Source of the DNA: a virus | Length of the DNA stretch: 40,635 nucleotides | Reading direction: 5' to 3' (one strand) | IMG/VR virus record: IMGVR_UViG_3300037141_000176 | Span: 1-40,635 of that record | In this document: piece after piece, positions 26,569-33,525 of the stretch | Layout of the letters: every line of letters starts with the position of its first letter | Numbering within the stretch: the stretch's first letter is position 1 | Notes under the pieces: generated by a model | What the model was told of the DNA's origin: nothing | Seen by the model: the letters and a program-made list of their open reading frames with translations, nothing else | Database searches by the model: none | Made by a program: the position numbers and the translations under genes

Positions 26569-26753
26569 TTCTTCACTTCTTCAGGATGTATAATAGAAAC
26601 ATCTACACCTGTTTCTGCTTTGATTAAACCTTCTAATGCTTCTTCAGTAACTTTTTCTAATGCTTGTCCTTCTGGAGATTCAACTTCTTCTTTAAGCTTC
26701 TCGCAAGAACATCCACAAATACAAAGAGCAACCATCATGATAAATAGTTTCAT
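26565..26753 (-). CDS. Small lipoprotein
   Basis: 62 residues: MKLFIMMVALCICGCSCEKL carries a signal and a lipobox-like CGC before an acidic, helical mature part (EEVESPEGQALEKVTEEAL). It directly follows recT, overlapping its stop by four bases, and overlaps the next lipoprotein gene. An envelope-anchored accessory role is likely. No family is recognised. Confidence 0.6.
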   Translation of the reverse strand: MKLFIMMVALCICGCSCEKLKEEVESPEGQALEKVTEEALEGLIKAETGVDVSIIHPEEVKK

Positions 26754-27580
26754 ACTTCCTCCGGTTTTTTTTGTTTATTTTTCCAGACATTAAACTTATC
26801 AAACAATCTCTTTTGATCTTCTAAAAGTATTTTAATAGCATTGCTAGCTGTCCAGTCGAAATGCTTCATCACAGTTCTTAAATATTCATGTGCAAGATAT
26901 CTTTCTTCTTTTTCAAAAAGAGCTATAAATCTATCAATAATTTCTGAATCATCAATGTCATGTAGAACTGTAGGTTCACATGAATCATCTATAACCTCAT
27001 CACAAATCACAGGAACGCTATCAGAAGCTCTTATCTCACCTTCCACATATCCAATGCCTATAACATCACTAAATAGCTGTCTAGCGAGCCTGCTTAGTGC
27101 TCTAGCAAAACACATATCTTTTGGCCACTTTGTCCATCCGCCACCTTGTTTAACAAGGCCAGCTTTTTGTGCTTCTGCAACTGAGAAAGATGCTGTAATC
27201 ATTTCACCTGTGTCGCATCTTTTACCAACAAGAGTACATTCGGTATCTGAAGAGTTTTTAACGATAACTTGATGCCCTGCTTTGCGAATTAAGGCATTCA
27301 TCATACGTGCAGATATTTCGGCTTTACCTTGTATGATATTTATTCCTCCATTTAATGCAGCCATTGGCGGAATACCCATTTCTCGTGCAGCAAGCATGAT
27401 CATCATAACACCTGCTTCATCGCCTATGCCTTTATACATCTTGCTTGCGACTGCTTGTTTTGCCATTACGCTAAAAACCATCATTTCATGTTCTGAAGGC
27501 ATCGAACTTCTGGATTGTACCGTAATTATATTACTAGTATCTGGCATTGGCCTCTCACCAGAAACTTGAATTTGATTCAT
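26750..27580 (-). CDS. recT: RecT-family single-strand annealing protein
   Basis: 276 residues, with AGGTAGAAA before the start. In the family this binds ssDNA and anneals complementary strands for recombination. The stretches AREMGIPPMAALNGGINIIQ (about 67-86), then ARMMNALIRKAGH, and FARALSRLARQLFSDVIG (about 165-182) followed by YVEGEI match RecT proteins closely. The C-terminus is acidic and variable. A PD-(D/E)XK nuclease gene lies two genes upstream, giving the exonuclease/annealing pair that phages use for concatemer formation and repair. Chance of misassignment is low. Confidence 0.88.
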   Translation of the reverse strand: MNQIQVSGERPMPDTSNIITVQSRSSMPSEHEMMVFSVMAKQAVASKMYKGIGDEAGVMMIMLAAREMGIPPMAALNGGINIIQGKAEISARMMNALIRKAGHQVIVKNSSDTECTLVGKRCDTGEMITASFSVAEAQKAGLVKQGGGWTKWPKDMCFARALSRLARQLFSDVIGIGYVEGEIRASDSVPVICDEVIDDSCEPTVLHDIDDSEIIDRFIALFEKEERYLAHEYLRTVMKHFDWTASNAIKILLEDQKRLFDKFNVWKNKQKKPEEV

Positions 27581-27583
27581 TTT

Positions 27584-27799
27584 CTACCTATATTGTTCAT
27601 ACATTGGATTTGTAAACTTTTCTTGTTCCCATGCTGCTTGATCTTTAGCTTCATGATCACGAACATCATCTCCCCAATCTTTTCTAGAAACGAAGTTGCT
27701 CGGCCGTTTTCCAAATGCTTTTTCTGCGAATGGAACCGGGATAAGATTTTTTCGCCACTTGTCGAGCCTTTCTTGCATTACCTGACTTAGCTTTTCCAT
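27584..27799 (-). CDS. Hypothetical protein between nuclease and recT
   Basis: 71 residues, with AAGGAT before the start. Charged and helical (KLSQVMQERLDKWRKNLIPV), then a polar middle (KRPSNFVSRKDWGDDVRDHEAK). No motif or family is recognised. Position suggests a recombination accessory role. Confidence 0.55.
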   Translation of the reverse strand: MEKLSQVMQERLDKWRKNLIPVPFAEKAFGKRPSNFVSRKDWGDDVRDHEAKDQAAWEQEKFTNPMYEQYR

Positions 27800-27802
27800 T
27801 TT

Positions 27803-28333
27803 TTAATCCTTGTGGAAGAAATGATTGTACACTCTTAAGACGCTGAAAAAAAAACCATCATCTGGAGGATATTCAATAAGTTTAGGCTTCTTACCATTCT
27901 TATTTAGATGTAGGAATATGATTCCACTAATTTTATGCCCTGCTTGTGTTGCTAAATAGTAGTAAGCTTCACCTTGTGCTTGCCATGTCTTTGATGGTTT
28001 TGAGGAAGTTTTGATGTCTACAATATAAAGTTTACCTTCTAGCTCTACTATCATATCGATTTGGCCGGTAATCTTGTGTGTATCACACCAGAAACGCTTC
28101 TCCATTTCTATTAACTTTCGGCCTTCACCCCACCATAACTTGAATGACTCAACATATCCCCAAACTTCATCGTCAATGCCAATCTCACCAATTCCAGACA
28201 TTATCGCTTCACATATTTTATGAACTTTAGTTCCTCTTCTGGCAGCATTTTGTAAAACATCCGGTTTAATGTTTTGCAATCCAGAGAATGGATAAAGAAT
28301 TTTTGTTACTCTTAAATAATTTTCTCTATCCAT
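27803..28333 (-). CDS. PD-(D/E)XK exonuclease (RecB/Cas4-like nuclease fold)
   Basis: 176 residues. Motifs in order: RGTKVHKICEAI with His38, TGQIDMIVELEG with Asp93, YIVDIKTSS with Asp106 and Lys108, and QAQGEAYYYL with Gln120 and Tyr124. These are the metal-binding and lysine positions of phage PD-(D/E)XK nucleases that act as recombination exonucleases. It would resect DNA ends to load the RecT product encoded downstream. Start is inside the end of a tiny membrane-protein gene, so coupling is likely. Confidence 0.85.
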   Translation of the reverse strand: MDRENYLRVTKILYPFSGLQNIKPDVLQNAARRGTKVHKICEAIMSGIGEIGIDDEVWGYVESFKLWWGEGRKLIEMEKRFWCDTHKITGQIDMIVELEGKLYIVDIKTSSKPSKTWQAQGEAYYYLATQAGHKISGIIFLHLNKNGKKPKLIEYPPDDGFFFSVLRVYNHFFHKD

Positions 28334-29417: not shown

Positions 29418-29712
29418 AACGAAGAAGTGTAGCAAGTGTCATAAGGTGAAACTGCAAATGCAAGATTTCTACCTTTGTGCCGGTGTATATAGAAGCGAAT
29501 GCAAGAAATGTACTGTAAAACGAAATGTACGATATCAGCGTTTGCATAGAACTTGGAAACATAGATATGTTGATGATGACGCTAGGCGTGATTACATGCG
29601 TGAATATTACGCTAAAAACAAAGAGAAGTTTGCAGCATATCGTACTGAGTTTCGTGAGAAATATCCTGAGTATTATAAATGGTATTTCCGCAGAAGAAAA
29701 AATAAAAAATGA
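29410..29712 (+). CDS. Zinc-ribbon protein with basic tail
   Basis: 100 residues. CSKCHKVKLQMQDFYLC then CKKCTVKRNVRYQ give a CxxC...CxxC zinc site like that at the N-terminus of phage Endonuclease VII and HNH proteins, but no HNH residues follow. The rest is very basic and aromatic (RTWKHRYVDD, YREYYAKNKEKF, WYFRRRKNKK), suggesting nucleic-acid binding. Its stop overlaps an ATGA before the initiator frame. Confidence 0.6.
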   Translation: MSETKKCSKCHKVKLQMQDFYLCAGVYRSECKKCTVKRNVRYQRLHRTWKHRYVDDDARRDYMREYYAKNKEKFAAYRTEFREKYPEYYKWYFRRRKNKK

Positions 29713-29760
29713 ACGCTTTGCTTTATATGATAGAAAATACTATAGTGACCGCAGAAAAAG

Positions 29761-29791
29761 AAAACCCCGAACTTGACGGTTCAGGGTTTTT
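29761..29791 (+). terminator. Bidirectional intrinsic terminator before the initiator gene
   Basis: AAAACCCCGAAC (29761-29772) pairs with GTTCAGGGTTTT (29779-29790) over a 6-base loop, with one mismatch, T-rich on both sides. It lies inside the open frame that continues to 29709, so it argues for the initiator starting at 29871 or for control by translation through the hairpin. Confidence 0.8.
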
Positions 29792-29870
29792 ATGTTCTGC
29801 TACGAACGAGACAAATAAGATACCCTCGATCATAGCAGATTCTTCCATTTTGGACAATAAGGAATTTGCT

Positions 29871-30830
29871 ATGACATCCGGATATATCAGAATACCTCGC
29901 TCACTTCTTACTGATCCTCTCTGGGAAACTCTTTCTCTTAAGCATCAAATGATTTTCATGAAAATTCTTGAGCTTGCTTGTTATAAACCTAGAAAATTTG
30001 ATGATCACGGCCATATAATAGATTTAGAAATCGGTCAAATTTGCATTTCTGAAAGAGAATTAAAATCTAAATGTCATCCTCAAATTTCCCGCATAGATAT
30101 TCAACGTTCTTATGTCAAATTAATTCTTGTCGGTTTTTTGCGCCAAGAAGTGAGCCATAAAAAAAGCGTTTTAACTATCACACATAAAGATACTTATGAT
30201 CTTATTAAGAAAGCAAGTGAGCCAAGAAATGAGCCAAACTTGAGCCAAACTCGAGCCAAACTTGAGCCAGAAACTAATAAAGGAAAGAAAGTAAAGAAAG
30301 AAAAAGATACTTCCTTAAAGGTTTCAAATGAAACCAATGAAAAGATTTCTGTTTTTTCAAATGAAGTTCAGGAAATCGGAAAGAAGCTAATCGAAATCAT
30401 GAAGTTAACAAATTCAGAATTTGAAATACCAAATCAGAAAATGTTAAAGGTTTATGATTCGATAGATAAAATCATTCGCATAGACAAAAAAACTCCTGAA
30501 TTAATTCTTAAAGTGTTTACTTGGGCTATAAGCGATGAGTTTTGGTATCCACTCATGTTTAAGCCTGATCCTGCTGCCTTTCTTCGAAAGCATTTTCTTC
30601 AACTTGTGGCGAGAATGATCTCGAAACCAGCAAAGAAAAAAGCTATTGATTCTCTCGTAGTTCACGGAGAAATTTACTCTGGTTGGAAAGCTGAAGTGGA
30701 AGGTGATAAGCTTTCTTTTGTTATCCAAAATGGTCAAGCTTTACCTAAAATTTTCAAGAGAAATGATTCAAATTTTAGAGATAATTTTATTGATTTCGCC
30801 AATAAAATTGGAGTGCCATATGAGCTCTAA
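29871..30830 (+). CDS. Replication initiator, lambda O-like, winged helix N-terminus
   Basis: 319 residues from the ATG at 29871, which follows AAGGA with good spacing. The frame is open to 29709, but that part contains a strong terminator. The N-terminal ~105 residues (GYIRIPRSLLTDPLWETLSL, then LEIGQICISERELKSKC, then RSYVKLILVGFLRQE) match winged-helix origin-binding domains of phage replication proteins. A polar linker follows, encoded by 11-bp iterons, then a helical C-terminal domain (about 185-319). In lambda-type phages this protein binds origin iterons and recruits helicase loading. No polymerase or helicase gene is visible nearby. Confidence 0.75.
   Translation: MTSGYIRIPRSLLTDPLWETLSLKHQMIFMKILELACYKPRKFDDHGHIIDLEIGQICISERELKSKCHPQISRIDIQRSYVKLILVGFLRQEVSHKKSVLTITHKDTYDLIKKASEPRNEPNLSQTRAKLEPETNKGKKVKKEKDTSLKVSNETNEKISVFSNEVQEIGKKLIEIMKLTNSEFEIPNQKMLKVYDSIDKIIRIDKKTPELILKVFTWAISDEFWYPLMFKPDPAAFLRKHFLQLVARMISKPAKKKAIDSLVVHGEIYSGWKAEVEGDKLSFVIQNGQALPKIFKRNDSNFRDNFIDFANKIGVPYEL
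30219..30269 (+). repeat. Iteron array: replication-origin candidate inside the initiator gene
   Basis: Five copies of GAGCCA start at 30219, 30231, 30242, 30253 and 30264, spaced 12, 11, 11 and 11 bases, with most units reading GAGCCAAACTT or its variant. An outlier copy is at 30152. Because 11 is not a multiple of three, the repeat is read in all three frames (SEPR, NEPN, LSQT, RAKL, EPE), so DNA, not protein, appears selected. A purine- and A-rich tract follows (30270-30315). This mirrors the lambda origin, with iterons and an A-rich tract inside gene O. Confidence 0.7.
30320..30335. promoter_or_regulatory. Inverted repeat downstream of the iterons
   Basis: GGTTTC-AAAT-GAAACC is a perfect 6-bp inverted repeat following the A-rich tract after the iterons. 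It may be part of the origin, for protein binding or hairpin formation. Confidence 0.4.
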
Positions 30831-32003: not shown

Positions 32004-32275
32004 ACCAAGAAGAGATGAAAGAAAGGTTTTACAAGAATGTTGCATATCTTCAGAAGAATATACCTCCGGATGATATTTATTTGTTTTCCGAGCAAACATT
32101 TATGGCATCCCTATTCTTTCTTAAGAAGTGGTCTGAATGGGTTTCTATCAATGAAGAGATGGAAAAATGTCCCATAACAAGAAAATGGGTAATAAATATA
32201 TTAGCATTGGTAGAAGTTAGAGAGAAAAATATCGACTTAAACTTAGATCTTAACCTTGATAGTGTGGAAGAATGA
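32000..32275 (+). CDS. Small hypothetical protein before rusA
   Basis: 91 residues, helical, with LFSEQTFMASLFFLKKWSEW at the centre and an Asp/Leu repeat near the end (NIDLNLDLNLDSVEE). Overlaps both neighbours by four bases, indicating coupled translation. No family recognised. Confidence 0.6.
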   Translation: MNQEEMKERFYKNVAYLQKNIPPDDIYLFSEQTFMASLFFLKKWSEWVSINEEMEKCPITRKWVINILALVEVREKNIDLNLDLNLDSVEE

Positions 32276-32892
32276 AGATAGTTTTAGATGGTATTCCAGT
32301 ATCACAAGCACGCATGAAGTTTGTTTCACGAGGTGGTTTTGGTCGAGCATATGATCCAAGAGCTAAAGAAAAAGAGATCATACGAAAGCAGATAATCGAA
32401 TATAAGAACAATTGCTATCCTGATTTTAAAATGCTAGAGCATCCGAGAATATCATTCATCTTCCATATGCCTATATTAAAGTCATTGCCTAAGAAAGATC
32501 TTGCTAAGCATTCTACGGGTTTGCTTAAGCATGAAAAGAAGCCTGACGTGGATAATTTTGTTAAGTGTTACTTAGACTGTCTAGATGGAATAGTTTTTGA
32601 CGGCGACCAAAAGGTACAACTTGGGGCATGTATAAAACTATTCCATCCTTTTCCTAAAACATTAATTGTTATACAGGAAGCATCTCAGCAACTTTCTCCG
32701 CTTGAGGTTGATCCATTAACTTGGTTTTGTCTGTTCGGGAAAGAATCTGCCAAATGCTCATATGCTGAAATGGTTTCCCTACCCGATTCTTATACTCCAA
32801 ATTATTTAGTGTCTTCGCAATCAAACGATACGACATACCCTCATCAAACCATTGAATCATTAGAGACAATGCCAATTGCTCAACATGGTTAG
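32272..32892 (+). CDS. rusA: RusA-family Holliday junction resolvase with C-terminal extension
   Basis: 206 residues. The first ~135 form a full RusA: LDGIPVSQARMKF at the start, then KKPDVDNFVKCYLDCLDGIV with Asp92 and Asp94 and FDGDQKVQ with Asp110/112, the acidic residues of the family, which cuts four-way junctions in late replication. The last ~70 residues have no RusA counterpart and overlap the convergent serine recombinase by 224 bases. This tail is probably a read-through of antisense DNA, since family members are about 120-140 residues. Confidence 0.85.
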   Translation: MKIVLDGIPVSQARMKFVSRGGFGRAYDPRAKEKEIIRKQIIEYKNNCYPDFKMLEHPRISFIFHMPILKSLPKKDLAKHSTGLLKHEKKPDVDNFVKCYLDCLDGIVFDGDQKVQLGACIKLFHPFPKTLIVIQEASQQLSPLEVDPLTWFCLFGKESAKCSYAEMVSLPDSYTPNYLVSSQSNDTTYPHQTIESLETMPIAQHG

Positions 32893-33388
32893 GTATGAGA
32901 TGAATATTATCTTCATGTAAATCATAACCATATGGCAAATGCCTACTCACACGCTCATTACGTTCTTTCTTAGCTGTCATCTTTGATTTAATGCGTAAAC
33001 ATATGTCTGTTCGCTCTTTCTGTGCTAGAACGCCCATTAAGCCTATTGTAAACTCATCATCCGCGTTTGAATCGTTTAGGCTATGTATTCTGCATTTACG
33101 CTCTTTGATCATGCGATATATGGTCACCATTTCGATGACATCACGGCTCAAGCGATCAAGTTTGTAAACTACTACTTCATTGCCTTTCTTTAAGCTTTCA
33201 AGCATTTGCATTAAGCCAAGACGTTTGCTCATCTTAACACGTGATGAGGTATCAGGATCAGCAAATATCACATGCTCAAACGCTTCGCCTTTGCTAAGTG
33301 ATTTTATATAGCGTAAACATTCTTGTTCTTGTGTGCGAGTATCTTGTTCGTCGGTTGATACCCTGAGATAAATTACGTACTTCACCAT
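32669..33388 (-). CDS. Small serine recombinase (resolvase/invertase family)
   Basis: 239 residues from the ATG at 33388, which follows AAGGA and overlaps the preceding gene. The catalytic domain shows YLRVSTDEQD with Ser11 and Arg9, and YKLDRLSRD with Asp78, Arg79, Ser81, Arg82. A C-terminal helix-turn-helix (MSYRLIAKTLNNLEY, then MSIWQILSR) follows. The size is too small for a large serine integrase. Possible roles are resolving genome multimers or inverting a segment. Its 3' end overlaps RusA. Last gene of the minus-strand operon. Confidence 0.85.
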   Translation of the reverse strand: MVKYVIYLRVSTDEQDTRTQEQECLRYIKSLSKGEAFEHVIFADPDTSSRVKMSKRLGLMQMLESLKKGNEVVVYKLDRLSRDVIEMVTIYRMIKERKCRIHSLNDSNADDEFTIGLMGVLAQKERTDICLRIKSKMTAKKERNERVSRHLPYGYDLHEDNIHLIPNHVEQLALSLMIQWFDEGMSYRLIAKTLNNLEYKNRVGKPFQHMSIWQILSRTDKTKLMDQPQAEKVAEMLPV

Positions 33389-33525
33389 GTTATTTTTCTT
33401 CCTTCTACCATTAAATAACAAAATCCTAAATACATTATTGCATATTTTATACCTTCTAGCTCATGGAAAAAACAGGCAAACATTCCAGTAATAACAACCC
33501 CCATTATACTCATTCCAAGATTCAT
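33382..33525 (-). CDS. Small membrane protein, coupled to the recombinase
   Basis: 47 residues: MNLGMSIMGVVITGMFACFF, then LEGIKYAIMYLGFCYLMVEG, two hydrophobic segments with a short basic end. The start overlaps the upstream stop by ATGA and the stop overlaps the recombinase start, so it is well placed as a real gene. Unknown function. Confidence 0.6.
   Translation of the reverse strand: MNLGMSIMGVVITGMFACFFHELEGIKYAIMYLGFCYLMVEGRKITW

Follow-up and report, generated by a model that had tools for sequence, protein, structure and literature searches.

One-turn iterons inside the initiator gene of an uncharacterised phage point to a probable replication origin

The analysed DNA encodes a phage replication initiator close to genes with recombination and replication functions. 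The window, by which we mean the entire 40,635 bp stretch, is a virus record carrying terminase, portal and head genes, and the genes near the initiator include those for an exonuclease, a RecT-like protein and a RusA. The minus strand of 26750-28333 carries the genes for the RecT-like annealing protein and a PD-(D/E)XK exonuclease, which run divergently to the replication genes. Cumulative GC skew gives no usable evidence for an origin, as the direction of the genes changes at 28.4-28.9 kb: the local minimum near 29 kb corresponds to this switch, and 36-37 kb lies lower. Immediately 5' of the initiator start, a strong hairpin at 29751-29800 (fold -24.1 kcal/mol, z -4.95) shows terminator-like features and is called on the minus strand. 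Downstream of the initiator, the frame 31497-31820 matches SpoVG weakly (Pfam E = 4e-4, under the curated cut-off), and the 3' end of a RusA-like resolvase frame (32272-32892, plus strand) is overlapped over more than 200 bp by a serine-recombinase frame (32669-33421, minus strand). The RusA Pfam match stops at residue 134 of 206, and the overlap corresponds to an extra tail of the RusA-like frame.

The initiator belongs to the PHROG 2514 type and combines a predicted winged helix with a repeat-encoded linker and a C-terminal domain. Its open frame reaches back to ATG 29709, corresponding to 373 amino acids, and in this extended form (29709-30830) matches PHROG 2514 with E = 1.4e-25 (residues 56-313 of 373, profile positions 2-252 of 270). 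Since the aligned starts of its two nearest relatives, the loci L006 and L009, point to ATG 29871, this codon is most likely the gene start, and the product would therefore comprise 319 residues. The match covers the winged helix, the linker and the C-terminal part, with the C-terminal domain lying mostly inside it. In an AlphaFold2 model based on nine sequences, the winged helix at residues 10-115 is confident, the iteron-coded linker lacks structure and the C-terminal part is helical at low confidence. Among fold matches covering most of the winged helix, RepA plasmid initiators rank first (4pql, 4pt7, 4pta and 5kbj; Z 8.6-9.7), including a Rep-DNA complex. CodY (Z 9.2) and other unrelated winged helices follow close behind, and the RepA match itself is moderate (Foldseek E about 0.016). 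A sequence-profile search of solved structures returned generic winged-helix regulators for the most part, and Pfam RepA_N is absent among the matches of the window protein at E ≤ 1. The gene product is a phage replication initiator consisting of an N-terminal winged helix, a disordered linker translated from the repeats and a C-terminal domain. The features of the locus are listed in Table 1.

Table 1. Features of the initiator gene and its repeats (window coordinates)
Feature	Position	Strand	Remarks
Replication initiator gene, PHROG 2514 type ('DnaD-like helicase loader')	29871..30830	+	319 aa
N-terminal winged-helix DNA-binding domain (residues 10-115 of 319; predicted)	29898..30215	+	AlphaFold2, block mean pLDDT about 61-89
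Upstream iteron pair in wing-coding part (GCGCCA 30140, GAGCCA 30152)	30140..30157	+	12 bp apart
Main iteron array, five GAGCCA units	30219..30274	+	spacing 12-11-11-11, shared with L006 and L009
9-bp direct repeats (AAAGAAAAG x2.9), A-rich, purine-rich top strand; putative unwinding element	30279..30304	+	Tandem Repeats Finder
Short inverted repeat GGTTTCA-AA-TGAAACC	30320..30335		probably incidental
C-terminal mostly helical domain, presumed loader/helicase recruitment	30330..30827	+	helices 154-270 predicted, low confidence

The main array consists of five GAGCCA copies that are read in all three frames. The copies start at 30219, 30231, 30242, 30253 and 30264, exactly where the original prediction had placed them; the period of 11 bp that it assigned to them holds for the last three intervals but not for the first, which measures 12 bp. 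Tandem Repeats Finder reports its highest score in the window (74) for this array (30218-30269, period 11, 4.6 copies). The five copies occupy codon phases 0, 0, 2, 1 and 0, and the encoded peptides differ (SEPR, NEPN, LSQT, RAKL), as had been claimed. Over the full window GAGCCA occurs 12 times against 14 expected and shows no enrichment, so that the clustering of the motif represents the signal. When the segment was recoded synonymously, none of 5000 versions reached five GAGCCA copies (maximum 3) and none reached the observed identity at lag 11.

Close relatives of the window protein are few, and the comparison was extended to wider initiator families. When 2.9 million viral contigs were scanned for the repeat itself, defined as four GARCCA units exactly 11 bp apart, 35 loci were obtained. 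In about half of them the array immediately follows the part coding for the winged helix in a phage initiator gene. These genes are distributed over several replication-initiator PHROG families; several other loci, with frames that are short or unrelated (e.g. L010-L015, L017, L019, L023 and L026), could not be recognised as initiators and were left out. An alignment-based scan using the winged helix only, and no repeat, recovered just the contigs of L006 and L009, which share 24-28% identity with the window protein overall and 31-34% in the winged helix. Pattern scans with the window protein as the only query detected no relatives, in viral or in genome contigs, and tblastn in named phages gave one weak match only. 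The exact family of the window is rare and the comparison therefore rests on L006, L009 and the wider families. To avoid circularity, two comparison sets were drawn without reference to the repeat, being sampled by winged-helix sequence alone with query A9 (PHROG-2514 type) and query A7 (Tuc2009 type).

Both sets carry an 11-bp periodicity behind the winged helix, followed by a second repeat module. In 28 non-redundant PHROG-2514-type loci, mean DNA autocorrelation behind the domain is 0.52, 0.50 and 0.48 at lags 11, 22 and 33, compared with about 0.33 in a codon-shuffled control, while the remaining lags stay near background. The best lag is a multiple of 11 in 26 of the 28, and 24 possess a 9-bp A-rich array after the iterons (e.g. 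AATAATGAT). The window follows the same empirical rule, with its 11-bp array right behind the winged helix and 9-bp A-rich repeats thereafter. Among 63 Tuc2009-type loci the lag-11 autocorrelation is 0.44 versus 0.27, and many have 5-, 10- or 15-bp arrays after the iterons (e.g. AGGATAGGTA). The one-turn unit is no peculiarity of the window phage but the rule in these initiator families. The layout is also present in named phages of Staphylococcus, Bacillus, Enterococcus, Anoxybacillus, Vibrio and Sulfitobacter, where the period is constant and the iteron cores vary widely (for example ACGACAG, AAGACACAG, ACAACAGACGG, GGCAACCA, GGTATACC); within one array the core is uniform, between phages it differs. 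The A/G-rich 5-, 10- and 15-bp arrays of the Tuc2009-type loci L039-L118 (AGTATAGTATAGATA, AGGATAGGTA) are built of TAG-rich units, which may resemble DnaA-trio elements.

Comparison with the relatives indicates that selection acts on the DNA of the array and not on the peptide, in line with the original prediction. L006 and L009 keep the identical 12-11-11-11 spacing while core and peptide vary: all array copies read GAGCCA in the window and GAACCA in the two relatives. This A/G difference is silent (Glu) in one frame and leads to an Asn/Ser or Thr/Ala exchange in the other two. Being uniform across frames, it is not the product of a peptide-level constraint. Lag-11 identity in the 28 loci is similar at the three codon positions (0.55, 0.65 and 0.60), array length ranges from 2 to 12 units with no preference for multiples of three, and no relative was seen that keeps the peptide with recoded, non-repetitive DNA. 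It could be argued that the repeat is a low-complexity linker peptide maintained at the protein level, given that AlphaFold2 predicts disorder at this position and that linkers tolerate repeats. We consider this highly improbable, as a period of 11 moves the frame with each copy, the core difference from the relatives is the same in every frame, and the winged helix is better conserved than the linker (57% versus 28% identity in the 28 loci). A short peptide period is likewise absent: identity at lags of 3, 4, 7 and 8 residues is 11-12%, and the sole period, 11 residues, is forced by that of the DNA.

The array is followed by an A-rich tract containing a second, weaker repeat. The tract, which had been described from the outset, is real, extends from 30264 to 30308 and is 84% purine and 71% A+T. 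The 9-bp repeat within it is weak (2.9 copies, 88% match) and its A+T-richness moderate only, but relatives possess 9-bp A-rich repeats at the matching position, and the unit of one of them, L186 (AAGAAAAGA), equals that of the window up to rotation. The inverted repeat also proposed as part of the layout is present in the sequence; as an origin element we rejected it, since its occurrence is near chance, the window containing 25 inverted repeats with 7-bp arms.

Additional iteron-like copies lie in the DNA that encodes the wing. This upstream pair, overlooked in the original prediction, has one degenerate copy (GCGCCA), and L006 and L009 carry a GAACCA/GAACCA pair, likewise 12 bp apart, at the equivalent wing position. 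The pair precedes the main array by 67 bp in the window, about one helical turn more than the 55 bp found in L006 and L009. Over 33 arrays of this type, 31 matches to the locus' own core were found 20-100 bp before the array. Because a conserved wing peptide could explain part of this signal, cores were permuted between loci as a control; permuted cores gave a mean of 10 and a maximum of 21 matches, and 0 of 500 permutations reached the observed number. The upstream distances cluster at 45, 55-57, 67-69, 79-80 and 90-91 bp, and phase coherence is 0.89 at a period of 11.25 bp compared with about 0.18 for foreign cores. Threshold and range were chosen after the window family had been seen and the 33 loci are partly related, so that the exact significance is soft while the direction is clear. 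The in-phase copies suggest that the coding sequence of the reading domain may itself be constrained as an origin element. They also bear on the idea that the array arose by neutral slippage and has no function. Short tandem arrays can originate in this way and copy number does differ among relatives, but separate upstream copies in helical phase, a 12-11-11-11 spacing kept at 24-28% overall protein identity, and the recurrence of position and period in phages of unrelated hosts despite different cores render slippage exceedingly improbable.

We conclude, with a probability of roughly 0.87, that the stretch is a phage replication origin lying within the very gene that encodes its initiator, with the iterons as presumed binding sites of the winged helix. 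As the layout recurs in many other phages, the site is very probably where copying starts. In the mechanism we infer, the N-terminal winged helix would bind the five GAGCCA iterons of the main array and probably also the two copies upstream in the wing-coding part. Since the unit equals one helical turn, the bound monomers would line up along one face of the DNA, and the resulting strain could open the A-rich 9-bp repeat tract just downstream. The C-terminal domain would then recruit a helicase loader or helicase, with the iteron-encoded peptide serving as a tolerant linker only.

Iterons within an initiator gene might alternatively be sites for autorepression or copy-number control (handcuffing), with the origin located elsewhere. 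Winged-helix proteins often autoregulate, and plasmid iterons commonly serve both control and initiation; the position of the repeats inside the gene fits such a role as well. However, sites 270-400 bp into the coding region are poorly placed for an operator, and they are followed at a constant position by an A-rich repeat module that is conserved. In addition, the in-gene repeats of the lactococcal phages Tuc2009 and TP901-1 have been proven to be the origin (PMC8965321). We therefore regard pure control sites as improbable. By analogy, the experimental proof in these comparable initiator families lends support to the in-gene origin as originally predicted.

In-gene iteron origins of phage initiators are already known, and the arrangement in the window stands out as unusually regular and testable. 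It locates a probable origin in an uncharacterised phage. The underlying rule, an 11-bp array right behind the winged helix followed by A-rich 9-, 10- or 15-bp repeats, yields candidate origins from sequence alone and is applicable across many phage initiator families. With cores uniform in each phage and varying between phages, the winged-helix recognition code becomes directly testable. More tentatively, and at somewhat less than even odds, these loci may represent a widespread class of phage origin unlike the lambda type, in which one-turn iterons run through the initiator coding sequence and form a further cluster in the wing, all in phase. If so, one gene would encode both a reader and its text in overlapping DNA, the core would have to co-evolve with the codons that make the reading domain, and arrays with different cores would constitute a natural specificity code of phage initiators. 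Neither the 11-bp rule across families nor in-phase wing copies were found in the literature searched, which lay mostly outside subscription journals, and priority for them cannot be claimed.

The locus shares its overall organization with several known replication systems and differs from each in its repeat units. As in the lambda O gene with ori-lambda, an A+T-rich tract adjoins iterons that lie centrally within the initiator gene. The likeness to lambda noted originally thus holds for the layout but not for the unit: lambda has four iterons, each an imperfect inverted repeat of 19 bp (PMC7466680), whereas the window has five or seven 11-bp direct units and an initiator of another protein family. 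A putative lambda-like origin with four iterons inside the replication gene fhv_0043 has been proposed for Francisella phage KIRK, the product of which resembles that of Lactobacillus prophage Lj771; in the portion of that report on which we draw, the origin is a prediction only and an 11-bp rule is not described (PMC7924643). The Lj771 protein is among the matches of the Tuc2009-type winged helix.

The RepA_N initiator pSK41 Rep resembles the window protein in its central linker encoded by the origin and its separate C-terminal domain, and may resemble it in its winged-helix fold (predicted for the window protein, Z up to 9.7, with other winged helices scoring nearly as high). The winged helix of pSK41 Rep binds Rep boxes that lie midway along rep; the origin is inside this gene, and the linker that the origin encodes is dispensable (PMC5703833). 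The four Rep boxes are semi-palindromic, each with an A tract flanked by inverted sub-repeats of 8-9 bp (PMC7145576), and are in this respect unlike the 11-bp direct units of the window.

A close parallel in layout is offered by the replisome organizers of the lactococcal P335 phages Tuc2009 (Rep2009, ORF16) and TP901-1 (ORF13), which use in-gene repeats as ori. Tuc2009-type PHROGs 8489 and 5708 are absent among the matches of the window protein at E ≤ 1, where PHROG 2514 is found, and the cores of the two systems differ. The second module of Tuc2009 has a 15-bp unit (AGGATAGGATAGGTA) compared with the 9-bp unit of the window (AAAGAAAAG), and its 11-bp array is short (1.9 copies). The order of elements is nevertheless the same, an 11-bp repeat (CAACCAAATGA) being followed by A/G-rich repeats. 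Both the TP901-1 and Tuc2009 initiators bind the direct repeats in their own genes, and these repeats constitute the origin (PMC8965321); the GenBank record of Tuc2009 accordingly carries the note 'contains origin of replication'.
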